Made by a program: the position numbers and the translations under genes | DNA from: Liolophura sinensis | Taxonomy: Eukaryota > Mollusca > Polyplacophora > Chitonida > Chitonidae | DNA: 64,000 nt | Assembly (NCBI RefSeq): GCF_032854445.1 | Contig: NC_088302.1 | Location: 28,992,330 to 29,056,329, forward strand | Reading direction: 5' to 3' | Part shown: piece after piece, positions 19,438-25,400 of the stretch | Numbering within the stretch: the first letter of the stretch is position 1 | Layout: every line of letters begins with the position of its first letter | Notes under the pieces: model-generated | Seen by the model: the letters and a program-made list of their open reading frames with translations, nothing else | Told to the model about the DNA's origin: nothing | Databases searched by the model: none

Positions 19438-22400
19438 CTGGAGAGAGAACATAACACTCCAGTCAATGCCTAGTGTGGGATAAATCTGTTGCGTGTAGAG
19501 ATACACACCTTAGACATTTTTTAAAAAAATCACACAAACATCGAAAATTTCTCGGATGCCCTACAAAAGGCAATTTTCAAAAGAGGGCATTTTTTGTAGA
19601 AGTCTTGACTGTTTGTTTTTGTAATCAGCACCCTAAATTTACACAATTATATAACACAAAAGAAAGGAGAGACACTACCTCATTCAGGTTATAAACGTTT
19701 AGAGCTTTGTAACATTCCTGGTCATGAAAAATTGGCTTGATTACCTCCCCTGGGCTGTTGATCTTACAAAACAATATAAACATATGGGACGGGAATATAA
19801 ATTTGACGAAAATTTGGCAGGGTTCAATATAAGGAAAAAGTACGTACATGCTAGTGCAAAAATGCCATAAGAAACTTGCTGTATCACTTTAGTTTCGCTG
19901 ATTTCTTGGAAAAATAGTTCCAGCTGTAGAAAGTTGTTTCTGAAATAAGAAAGAAAACAACCATTTAATCAATTACAAAATTAACTAAGCTTGGAGAGTA
20001 ACAATGTTAACCTACTGGACAGGTTCTTGCAACTGCGAGGCTAGAAACGATGAAAAACATTTAGTCTTCCACCACAAGTTCTACGCCTCATTTTTTTAGC
20101 CAAGTACAATTTTCACCCAGTCGAATTTGAATCAAAAGATAACTTTTATAGATGCTTAAAACCATCCGCTTATTGACGGAGAGATTGTTTTTTGTTTTTT
20201 CGCTCATTTAAACAAACGTGAGCAACAACAGTTCTGAATGCTTTTAAACTCGGACGTAAGAGTTGGTGTGAAACAAGGCATGGAAATGATTTATTTATTT
20301 ATTTATTGGATTGGTGTTTTACGCCGTACGCAAGAATACTTCAGTTATACGACGGCGGCCAGCATTATGGTGGAGGGAAACCGGGCACAGCCCGGGGGAA
20401 ACCCACGACCATCCGCAGGTTGCTGACAGACATTCCCACTTACGGCCGCAGAGGAAGCCAGCATGAGCTGAACTTGAACTCACAGCGGCCGCATTGGTGA
20501 GAGGCTCCTGGGTCATTATGCTGCGCTAGCGCGCTAACCAACTGAGCCACGCATGTAAATGAGGCTATGTTGTGATCATTATGTACTCCAACACGATATT
20601 AGGAAGACTTTACAAAAAATAAGTTTTACACTTGTTGTAGCATAAAAATTTAGGTCTTTTCTTCTCGGCCATTCACAAATATCTATCCAACCAACGCCAT
20701 TATTGCTTACTGGTAAAATTCTCCGTCTATTCGGTTGTTTCTTGTATATTCTTCTAGCTCTTCACAATAATCGGAGATTCTCGTGTTCGTCCTCTCTAAG
20801 GTTGTCCGTAGTAGTTCAGACTCGGATTTGATGGTTGGAAAGTTTAACCACTTCACCAAGGCTTTGACTTTGTCTCTGGGCATCAGGTCAAAATCGCTGA
20901 TTCTCTCCTCGAGCGGTTTGACGGAGCGCGCCACAAACACTCCGCGTTCGCGGATCTCTTCCACCTTCAGGACGACGTTCCTCAGAAAGCTCTGTAAAGA
21001 TTGCATAGACAAGTCATTAACACAACCCTTAGACTGCTGGACTGCATCTCTGTAACTGTAGTGTTAAACGTTTAGTCAACCCAGGTGTAGAAGTTGGCCA
21101 TGGGCTGAAGATGTACATCATTTTATGGCACTTCTCCATCAACGGCACAAATGTTTTACATGTCATAGATATGGAGCACAGTGGTGAATTACTGGGTGAG
21201 TTCGTTATCACAACGTAATAGATCAAAACATTAACAGAAGATTTTGTCCCAGCAAGACTTCATCCCACATCCTTTTCAATCAAATCTTTGCAAGAACCCC
21301 GGTGTGACGGTAATGCTTGCTGTGTCACATATTGCAGAAGACAAAGTGACCTAAACTTGTTCATTAACCTAGGAAGATATATATAGAAATTTTTTAAAAG
21401 TTTGGACATGGAGGAAAACATTACACCCTAATGAAAAGGAAGGGCAGATCTGCATTGTGCCGCCATTATCTGAATCAACAAAAATACTAATCCCAGACAT
21501 CCCAAATGAATCAACTTCCGGTTGTCAGCCTTAGAAGAGAAAAAAACCTCACCTACATTTCGAACGTTAGATTATTTTCTTGTTTACTTCACTAATAAAC
21601 TGCGGGTTAAGACTTTTTATCAAAGTCAGACACTTTCTTCATTTTTTATTTCATGTTACAATGTACGATAGTCTAGTGCAGCACTCTTGTTCTCCAGTCA
21701 CTCACCTTCGTAGCTTCAATAAGCCCACTGAGGGTCTCTTTGTTAAAACTTCTGGCCAGCTCCGATTTTTCAATCTTCTTCTCCTTGTATTCCTGTCTCA
21801 ATGTGACGATTTCTTGCTTCAGCGCTTGTATTTTACCCCTCAGTGACGCGACGAGGGTGCCAAGGGATGACAGCAAATCTTGGATTCTGCCAACCGTCGA
21901 GTTGAAGTATCCACCAATGTCAACTAGCTTATCCACTAGATTTAAAATCTGATCTTTTTGAATAGTGTACATTTTGAATAACCTATCAAGATCAAGGACG
22001 AGTTCCTCTAGCGTAACGTCAGCCGCAGTGTTAATTTCATTTGAAACCTCCTCCAAAGTGTTGACCACTTTCTGATCCTTCAGGTCCGATAAACGCGTCA
22101 GTTCTTTCACACGGTCGTAGTTTTCTTTCAACTTCGCTGTCAGCAGACGCGCTGTCCTTAGAATAGTGTTCGTCAGGTTGTCGTAGAATTCACGCGTCTC
22201 TTTGAATTCACTGTACATTTGACCGTATCCTAGCAACAGGTCATCGCGGAACTTTTCTATGCCGTCCGTCATTTCACTCAGGATGGACTTCTTCACCCAA
22301 AACCCGTGGTCTTTGGACACGACGAGAAGGGCTAACTTTTTGTCTATGTCTTGAAGGGTATCATTCACTTTTTCTGCAGACATGTACGGAAAGTCTTCTC

Positions 22401-25400
22401 TTAACTGTGCTTTTGCCACGATTTCCATCATTGTGGTTTTCAACGTATTGTCCAGCGAGTAGAACGCCACATGTGACTTCTGCTTAAAGTTATCATATTT
22501 CATTCGTACCGTTCCGTTCAAAAGCTTAACCGCTTCATGTAAAGTTGTCAGCTGTTTTTTGTATTCTGCCTTGTACGAAGTCATGTCGTAGAAAAATTCG
22601 CTGATGTTAGACATACTTTCGTTAAACCCTTCGCTGATTGCCCTCAAAGTGTCATCGTCATAGGAGTATATGGTGTCGTCAACACGGTGGTACTTGTCTC
22701 GCGCGCGCTCAAACCCGTGCTGCAGTGCTACAACATCCGGCAACGTCCGCACAAAGCTCTCAGCGGCGTATACTGACGTCGCAGCGTTAGAGACGTCCAT
22801 GGCGTAGCTTGTCTTTTCGCATTCTTGGTAGCAGCCGCAGGATTGGAAGGATATATTGTAGGAGGCAGGATTAGAATAACTGTAGCCTTCTGTGGAAGAG
22901 AAACCAAAGAATAATTACTTCAATCATTACGTGTATAAAGTATACACGGCAGAATAATGCGAAAATCTGAGTGATTTATGTGGCATATTTTGTCTGCTTC
23001 TCTTTGTGAGATGGAGCAAACGAAAGACTACTTTATATTTTACGGACAGGTTAAATAATTCCTTTGATGTGGCTTGTCTACGAGTGCAAGTTTATCCTTC
23101 TCTGTAGATGTTCTGAGGTTTAGATATGTGTAATGTCTCCAAATGTTGCTCAGATCATTGATTGCAGCTGGAGCCATGGATCACAAGGCGGCGGCCATAC
23201 AGGTACATGGCTGTTTAACCTTGATGATAGATTCATCAAAGTTTCATGCGGCTCAGAATCTTTGTCCACCCAATTATCCCATTCGTCAGCGTATAAGGTC
23301 TGGCAGTGACATGGGGAATGAGAGGACGCACAGGCCCGTTCGCAGTGCTTGGAGCCAGCACTGCTAGGCGCCAGTCCTCCTGTCGGAAACGTCATACATA
23401 TTTCACGGAGCACCATGCGGTGTGTTTAGCTTATTTTGTTCCATGTCCGCTATTATCATGAATATAGTATAACGTGGAGTCACGCAAGAGGCTGGGGGCT
23501 TTGGTTTATGACCACCTACCTTGTATAGGCAGAACGCAGGAGAAGTAGTCCCGAACCGTACATCCGCCGACATCTGGAATAAAACAATAGCAAAAGATAA
23601 CAGGTTGGGTTTCAATAAGAATCAGAAGAGATAAAAAATGAAAAGAAATTTATGTTTTTTATCGCGTCTGCGATAAAACACTTTTTTGTTGTCTAATCCT
23701 TATCAATTCTGAAACTGACTTGACACGAAAGTGAATTGTACATGTATTTTTTTGTAAAACGTCGTGTTAAACCCAAAGTTTGAATTTTCTGTTTAAGTTC
23801 TGACAGACACTTTCGTGTGTTTGGCCAATTGGTGTGGGTGTATAGAGGGATTATCATACACGTATGAATATCCATACGCACTTGAGTGAAAACACATTAT
23901 TAGGGCAGTTGTTGATTCAGGATAACGTATAAGCGTACAAAGCACAAATTCGACCTGTTAAGCTCGAACAGTTGCAGTGTTTTGTGATCTCGGGATAAAA
24001 TTGTTTCTTTTTTTTGGTCCGTTTCTTTGTGGACATGACCATATAATAATAACAATTGTTTTATTTCAGACTGAAGTTCACATACAGAAAATATTTACAA
24101 CAGGAGTAGAAGGCAGCAAAACAAAAAATGCATATTAGTTTAAAACTGATAAGTGTTTATAATATAATGTAACGCTTACGAGTGATTCGCTACTTGCATT
24201 CTACTTCTCCGAGGCCATTGTTCAGACACAGCTGTATACGTTGCAGGTCTCCACTTCACAACTTGAAACTTTCTATTTCCAAAAGTCTTACATGGAGGCA
24301 TAGTATAGTTTTAGCTTCTGTGTTAGTAGGACTATTTCCATTTCACTTACAAGATTTCGTTTTGTAATTTCAGTTTTTATCCTGAATGGACTTAAAACTC
24401 TGTTTACAATCGTCTTATCTGACGTCATTGTACAGTTTTAGTTTCTATGTCGGTGGGATTTGACATTCTTTATTTCTAGCTGCCTTAAATGACGTCATTG
24501 TACAGTTTTAGTTTCCATGTTGCCGGGATTTGACATTCTTTATTTCCAGTTGCCTTACCTGGCGTCATTGTATAGTTTTAGTTTCCATGTTGCTGGGATT
24601 TGACATTCTTTTTTCCCAGTGGTCTTACCTGACTTCATTGTACAGTTTTAGTTTCAGTGTTGGTTGGATTTGACATTCTTTATTTCCAGCTGCCTTACCT
24701 GACGTCATTATACAGTTCTAGTATCTATGTTAGTGGTACATGACATCGTTTATTTCCAGTTGCCTTACCCGACGCCATTATACAGTTCTGGTTTCTATGT
24801 TAGTGGGACATGACATCGTTTATTTCCAGTTGCCTGACCTGACGTCATTATACAGTTCTGGTTCCTGTGTTAGTGGGGCATGACATCGTTTATTTCTAGT
24901 TGCCTTACCTGACGTCATTATACAGTTCTGGTTTCTGTGTTAGTGGGGCATGACATCGTTTATTTCTAGTTGCCTTACCTGACGTCATTATACAGTTCTA
25001 GTTTCTATATTAGTGGGGCATGACATCGTTTATTTCTAGTTGTCCTTACCTGACGTCATTGTAAATTTTGGGTTTCTATGATTGATTCCATTGTACAGTT
25101 ACAGTGTTATGTGGATGGGACTTCCTATTTCCAGTTACCTTACCTGACGTCATTGTACAGTTGCAGTGCTCCATGATGTGGCGAGCCTCACAGTCTTTCA
25201 GACACAGGTCCCTCTGGTTCCGATGCCTTCGGTTTGGGGAGCACGTCCCATACGGTGGGGGCAGATTAACGTGCTGGTATTAAAAGAAAGGTTGGAATCA
25301 AGTCTTGACATCGAGGACCTTTACACGATTACAGCACAAATTAGTGTAAGTTTATTTTAACTGACCAGCATGTGACTAGCGAGGCAGTAGCATGTCAGAA

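Follow-up and report, generated by a model that had tools for sequence, protein, structure and literature searches.

Channels of the DEG/ENaC family carry an N-terminal His-Gly motif ahead of their first transmembrane segment (TM1) and an FPxVTxCN motif after it, the latter being diagnostic of the family, and the manner in which structures outside the membrane are coupled to their gate is still disputed. The subject of this work is a DEG/ENaC-type gene of Liolophura sinensis, encoded on the minus strand of a 64,000-nucleotide stretch of DNA that is referred to here as the window (GCF_032854445.1, NC_088302.1, 28,992,330-29,056,329), in which a module of 459 residues appears to be inserted into the knuckle of the channel ectodomain.

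The available text of PMC11026163 lists pH, neuropeptides, enzymes and force as the means by which DEG/ENaC channels are gated, places knuckle helix alpha6 of FaNaC1 beside the finger of the neighbouring subunit at the FMRFamide pocket, and describes the finger helices as hard to align even among FaNaCs, while the accessible part of PMC10507113 names wrist and palm residues of ASIC proton activation. In the excerpt available of PMC6827283, the knuckle consists of two closely linked helices, the knuckles of the ASIC1 trimer come together on its outer face, and most Trichoplax channels bear insertions between these helices. As far as that excerpt goes, these Trichoplax (TadNaC-type) insertions are the nearest published precedent found: both they and the Liolophura insert lie in the knuckle, but the former are predicted loops (Phyre2 models) and the latter is a conserved module of 459 residues, helical in character and carried by a multigene family. 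In the open-licence literature, no description of a domain-sized knuckle insert was found.

The window gene resembles ASIC1 and ASIC5 (BASIC) in its ectodomain alignment and its GAS filter, and its channel core is also matched by the FaNaCs (Malacoceros FaNaC1 and Aplysia FaNaC; 7yvb, E 4.9e-17; 8on7, E 4.4e-7). The match of FaNaC1 to the profile of exon 7, the exon that encodes most of the insert, is weak (E 0.31) and ends at profile position 44, and the available text on FaNaC1 mentions no long module.

The channel gene and its insert

The DEG/ENaC-type identity of the gene, proposed in an earlier note made from the letters alone, is borne out by three features: TM1 followed by an FPxVTxCN-type motif (a feature of Pfam PF00858), a cysteine-rich ectodomain in which a stretch of 213 residues aligns, at E<=0.001, to 26 different chain sequences of ASICs, ENaCs and FaNaCs, and a second transmembrane segment (TM2) with a G-x-S filter (GAS) that aligns to its ASIC1/ASIC2 counterpart. 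The exons recognised are as follows.

42341..42508, minus strand: TM1 exon and the motif downstream of TM1 (ASC match C8:29034666-29034839, E 3.2e-11)
32042..32213, minus strand: exon 3 (finger), with an internal frame change (translation; the homologous exon of the one recognised relative stays in a single frame)
31163..31278, minus strand: exon 4 (ASIC match)
27795..27976, minus strand: exon 5 (ASIC match and relatives)
25144..25273, minus strand: exon 6, LPPPYGTC.., start of the thumb (ASIC match)
23520..23573, minus strand: short thumb exon between exons 6 and 7 (ASIC match)
21706..22889, minus strand: exon 7, channel cysteine motif and insert residues 1-366 (insert part 22803-21706; open frame, relatives)
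20711..20991, minus strand: exon 8, final 93 insert residues, ending RIDGEFY(Q) (nine copies in the genome)
19848..19939, minus strand: exon 9, return to the palm strands (ASIC match)
19229..19437, minus strand: exon 10, CDVGG..GAS filter, TM2, C-terminus and stop (ASIC match)

All internal exon borders are AG / GT, phases are compatible from exon 4 onward, and exons 4-10 form a single open frame of 748 residues with its stop at 19229; exon 1, which would carry the N-terminal motif, was not located in the 64-kb window. The cysteine motif of the channel is encoded in exon 7 and runs into the insert with no splice between them. A stop-free run of 413 codons is expected about 2e-8 times per window at this base composition. 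Since neither the 1184 bases of exon 7, nor the 281 of exon 8, nor their sum is divisible by three, skipping either exon or both would shift the frame.

The insert begins after CEKTSY and extends to GEFY, ahead of LQLELFF, 366 of its 459 residues coming from exon 7 and 93 from exon 8. With one cysteine, five prolines, 31.8% Asp/Glu/Lys/Arg and six N-glycosylation sequons (NxS/T), it matches the long, nearly cysteine-free, proline-poor and charged segment that had been described, and the same can be said of the claim that channel sequence resumes in frame in exons 9-10 (match to ASIC2/ASIC1, best E 1.1e-8). For the window gene taken alone, the excess of sequons is weak: six compare with a shuffled mean of 3.0 (sd 1.6), and 6.7% of shuffles reach that number.

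Site of insertion: the knuckle

Alignments to ASIC chains bracket the insert from both sides. On the upstream side, the sequence that begins with exon 4 and stops early in exon 7 has its counterparts in ASIC5 (E 6.8e-25) and ASIC1 (chain 9e4a, E 4.6e-21); on the downstream side, the stretch running from the last part of exon 8 into exon 10 is matched by ASIC2 (E 1.1e-8) and again by ASIC1. Chain 9e4a leaves the first aligned block at residue 395 and enters the second at 402, points between which the window gene has about 440 residues. In the ASIC5 alignment the cysteine motif of the window is placed on CEEIEYPATISYS with high posterior values. The phmmer path on ASIC1 has low posterior over exon 7 and misplaces this motif, leaving the exact start of the insert uncertain, as well as the assignment of the helices that flank it, which rests on the same path.

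These alignments nevertheless place the insert firmly between the last cysteine motif of the thumb and the ASIC1 strand NILVLDIFF, that is, in the knuckle interval, where the TadNaC-type insertions also lie. In ASIC1 the thumb precedes the cysteine motif. The proposal that a rod rises from each thumb is thus not upheld, and a thumb origin was ruled out, the site being past the last thumb cysteine motif in the ASIC alignments.

A family of inserts within one genome

The genome searched comprises 609 Mb in 632 contigs; only the best candidates were scored, and the counts of matches are lower bounds. The DEG/ENaC profile gave at least 76 exon-level matches. Twenty stretches of 10 kb, picked by matches to the middle part of the channel profile, hold 13 gene loci, ten of which have a single open frame leading from the cysteine motif into long cysteine-poor sequence (one is cut by the end of its stretch, and another, L028, has four cysteines). 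At two further loci (C8:19.28 and 19.17 Mb) the cysteine-poor sequence is in pieces, and at the remaining one (L026) no long cysteine-poor sequence was seen after the motif. As a contrast, a channel gene of the same genome (L001) has about 69 codons, in two frames, between the cysteine motif and the matching strand.

Searches with the insert exons themselves led to a defined set of genes. Exon 7 of the window gave at least 11 matches in the whole genome (E up to 10), and exon 7 of a relative at least 13 (E up to 1), of which two weak ones (E 0.2 and 0.5) fall in a second set described below, group B, and the remainder in nine genes. Counting that of the window, at least nine genes carry a homologous exon 7, all on contig C8 (29.01, 29.50, 29.59, 29.73, 29.82, 15.37, 15.43, 19.17 and 19.28 Mb) and each with a channel-profile match nearby; they are referred to as group A. 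Exon 8 has at least nine matches (E up to 1), one downstream of exon 7 in each of the nine genes. Seven of the eight relatives were read at length, and in these the matched exons follow the same order, not every exon being matched in each. Identity to exon 7 of the window is 23-41% per matched piece, and there are irregular members: the 19.17 Mb gene has stops within its exon-7 match, exon 7 of the 19.28 Mb gene is split in two pieces, and L011 departs from the other members in its frame close to the 3' end of exon 7. An alignment of seven exon-7 rows has 28 invariant columns, 26 of them past the cysteine motif and spread over the insert (e.g. YGQxYxEF). The expectation that homologues might share the insert therefore holds in the form of a multigene family, its scope being this one genome.

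Group B comprises four genes, two on C9 and one each on C11 and C5, each with a one-exon open frame at the insertion site, 510-583 codons long; those on C11 and C5 have stops in the scored match, the C5 row of the alignment being an uninterrupted 510-codon frame. Insert lengths are 440-463 residues in six group A genes with exons 7 and 8 joined, and 482-487 in three of group B, and the ten inserts measured (one without its exon 8) have 6-9 sequons each, six of the ten lying above 97% of their own shuffles.

Profile alignment of the two groups joins 63 columns at the start, including the cysteine motif, with a probability of 93.6. Without that motif, local alignment gave probabilities of 13.6 and 6.9%, with scores of 33.9 at the start and 31.0 in a distal part of 161 columns, and forced global alignment gave 90.3% and a score of 40.1; among controls in which group B was shuffled in 18-column blocks (n=100) the best scores were 33.4 locally and 27.6 globally, and the reversed group B reached 22.2 and 6.4, respectively. 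When the first 70 residues were removed, the distal score of 31.0 exceeded the highest control (27.9), whereas the global score, 13.0, did not (highest control 23.0). A common origin of groups A and B is probable on this comparison, short of proof.

The L028 gene (L028:3067-4011, C8:12.52 Mb) is a DEG/ENaC gene with an insert of about 245 residues and four cysteines at the same site. This insert has no visible relation to group A or B, and the genome search found no second copy; homology to either group was rejected, as no similarity was seen, and an independent insertion is possible. Two further observations can be set beside these loci. At C9:10416102-10416452, near a group B gene, lies a weak fragment of the group B module (E 0.0025) with six stops, possibly a decayed copy, and at C3:9660811-9660882 a TM2 exon match lies inside a 686-codon open frame, which may represent a further long insert joined to the final exon.

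Helical character of the insert

Hydrophobicity averaged over the alignment of seven group A members has a single sharp peak at 3.59 residues with a power of 32.9, the maximum of 2000 shuffles being 10.6. Along the insert, mean window power is higher than in all 500 shuffles. Of 59 windows of 49 residues, which overlap, 48 score above 97.5% of their shuffled counterparts, and the other 11 start at residues 1-15, 99, 162, 316-323, 379 and 393-407. Group B has no single peak over its whole length; its members, taken singly, are above their shuffles (reached by 0, 0 and 1 of 200), L027 being the least so.

A COILS-type score, with a table entered by hand and a threshold of P>=0.5, marks 87 residues of the window copy in two blocks and 0 to 166 residues in the other nine inserts, shuffled means being 0-10 and single shuffles reaching up to 72. 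One continuous coiled coil is not supported: in three inserts of the ten (L031, L023 and L025) the score stays within the range of 20 shuffles, in two it is nil, and the best period over the whole insert is 3.59, not the 3.5 of a continuous heptad. The heptad-like spacing noted earlier stands for some stretches, those near residues 46-100, 190-235, 262-310 and 352-380 having a local period near 3.5, but not for the insert as a whole. At the level of amphipathic helical periodicity, which extends over most of the length, an all-alpha bundle agrees with the data, and the insert probably consists of amphipathic helices with coiled-coil blocks in places, a bundle being at least as likely as a single unbroken rod. 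Since both its ends are attached close together, the module would have to fold back on itself.

In Pfam-A and PDB, no curated family or solved structure was found that covers the module, and the search for a known domain returned weak helical matches only. The amphipathic helices of laminin domain II and of spectrin-like repeats are like those of the insert; Laminin_II matches two of seven members weakly (best E 6e-4) and Spectrin_Anc-1 one of three (E 3e-4, 21.5 bits against a cut-off of 33.2). Such weak matches are common by chance between helical proteins, and no homology of the insert to these domains is claimed. Matches to viral fusion-protein helices (best E 1.2e-5) were set aside as chance heptad similarity, being about 30-100 residues each, with none at E 0.01 for another member. 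As for a prokaryotic source, a contig scan with group B gave 49 pattern matches and no relative, a weak negative that concerns group B only.

Divergence and constraint

In six genes (15 pairs), mean identity is 28.1% in the insert, 53.0% in exon 5 and 53.3% in exon 9. The invariant columns, the kept length and this divergence, taken together, fit an insert under a constraint of its own, either looser or more changeable.

A proposed mechanism

It is very probable that the window gene belongs to a family of DEG/ENaC-type subunits with a large helical module in the knuckle interval. From this gene anatomy we infer the fold, the trimer geometry, the partner and the gating as follows. The module would leave and re-enter the channel as antiparallel helices, forming a bundle or a folded-back rod on the outer face of the trimer, where its fast-evolving helices would be bound from outside by a partner, be it matrix, another cell or a large ligand; the resulting strain could then pass from the knuckle helix to the finger of the neighbouring subunit, at the corner which in FaNaC1 closes around the agonist, and from there by way of the thumb to the gate. 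A recognition or tethering antenna is judged the most likely function because of the size of the module, its exposed place, its sequons, its faster divergence and its position on the gating corner, and is put forward tentatively, at a little less than an even chance; anatomy and antenna function together form the best explanation, which is modestly favoured. A spacer or assembly role ranks next, and force sensing is a more remote possibility.

If the module were a single two-helix hairpin, its height would be up to about 34 nm (459 residues halved, at 1.5 A each, which is arithmetic and not a model). A bolder and unlikely extension is a distinct class of receptor-channels, with three knuckle-borne helical modules per trimer, each reading a different extracellular partner and gating a sodium channel directly; if true, gene duplication would have given rise to a series of receptors for contacts or matrix, each gene bearing a crown of its own kind. 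The family indicates that the knuckle accepts domain-sized insertions, and a module of some 460 residues beside the agonist corner of FaNaC1 would offer a natural test of how outside structure is coupled to the gate.

Several observations weigh against the antenna. High coiled-coil scores cover 87 of the 459 residues of the window copy, and two of the ten inserts have none. Exons 5 and 9, with which the insert was compared, measure no more than 56 and 30 codons and belong to the most conserved part of the core; in group A loci the pieces of exon 6 share 34-50% identity with that of the window, so that the insert contrasts less with the core as a whole. A spacer under weak constraint would diverge faster as well, and the frame of exon 3 is broken, so the window copy may be dead.

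Competing explanations

This last point leads to the reading that the window copy is a pseudogene and its insert a relic of a living family, a somewhat unlikely one that is compatible with any function of the module. Exon 3, whose irregularity the earlier note does not mention, is entered in the frame of the TM1 exon and left in another, the one needed by exon 4; the homologous exon of the C8:19.29 Mb relative is readable in one frame, and no homologue was recognised upstream of exon 4 at C8:29.81 Mb or C8:19.18 Mb (little sequence being present at the latter). The frame change would stem from decay into a pseudogene, from polymorphism or from a slip in the assembly, and the missing exon 1 would agree with the first of these. 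However, exons 4-10 keep 748 open codons and intact borders, as they would if exon 3 were affected by no more than a polymorphism or an error of assembly. In any case, the break touches the working state of the window copy, not its DEG/ENaC kinship.

The module could instead be structural, spacing the channel from its neighbours, shielding the pore with glycans or serving trimer assembly or trafficking, with no role in gating. A helical, nearly cysteine-free insert with 6-9 sequons would suit such a part, as would lengths that are conserved (440-463; 482-487) despite a drift to 28% identity. Against this, the 26 invariant columns past the cysteine motif, present in all seven aligned members, exceed the needs of a plain spacer, and the site adjoins the gating corner. 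This explanation is rather unlikely.

Tethers have been proposed for MEC-type degenerins, and the module might be a force lever, in which pulling on long helices shifts the knuckle. Long helical periodicity and a position on the outer face would be expected of such a device, but the divergence and the clustering of the genes point to recognition more than to a common mechanical part, and among solved structures ASIC5 and ASIC1 come closest, no MEC chain being among the 26 matches (its presence in the library was unchecked); a lever is quite improbable. Finally, that exons 7-8 are a separate nested gene or were wrongly joined to the channel is nearly refuted, for despite the lack of any Pfam-A family above its cut-off over the window insert, the order of matched exons is kept in seven relatives, all 11 exon-7 and all nine exon-8 matches among those listed lie at the nine channel genes, the channel's own cysteine motif is coded by exon 7, and skipping breaks the frame, so that neither of the two cases named in the earlier note as damaging, skipped exons or an unrelated nested or fused gene, finds support.

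Repeats in the window

A 70-base unit is repeated in tandem 9.2 times with 89% matches in the intron that separates exon 6 from the short thumb exon (24414-25060), and the intron between exons 3 and 4 holds 57 copies of the dinucleotide TA (31860-31973). A dispersed repeat, recognised by eye from its text gtgttttacgccgtac..cttatacgacggcggcc, occurs in both orientations at about 16795-16930, 20290-20570 and 28200-28360. The copy at 20290-20570 has tRNA-like text at its end, and the repeat resembles a short interspersed element (SINE).

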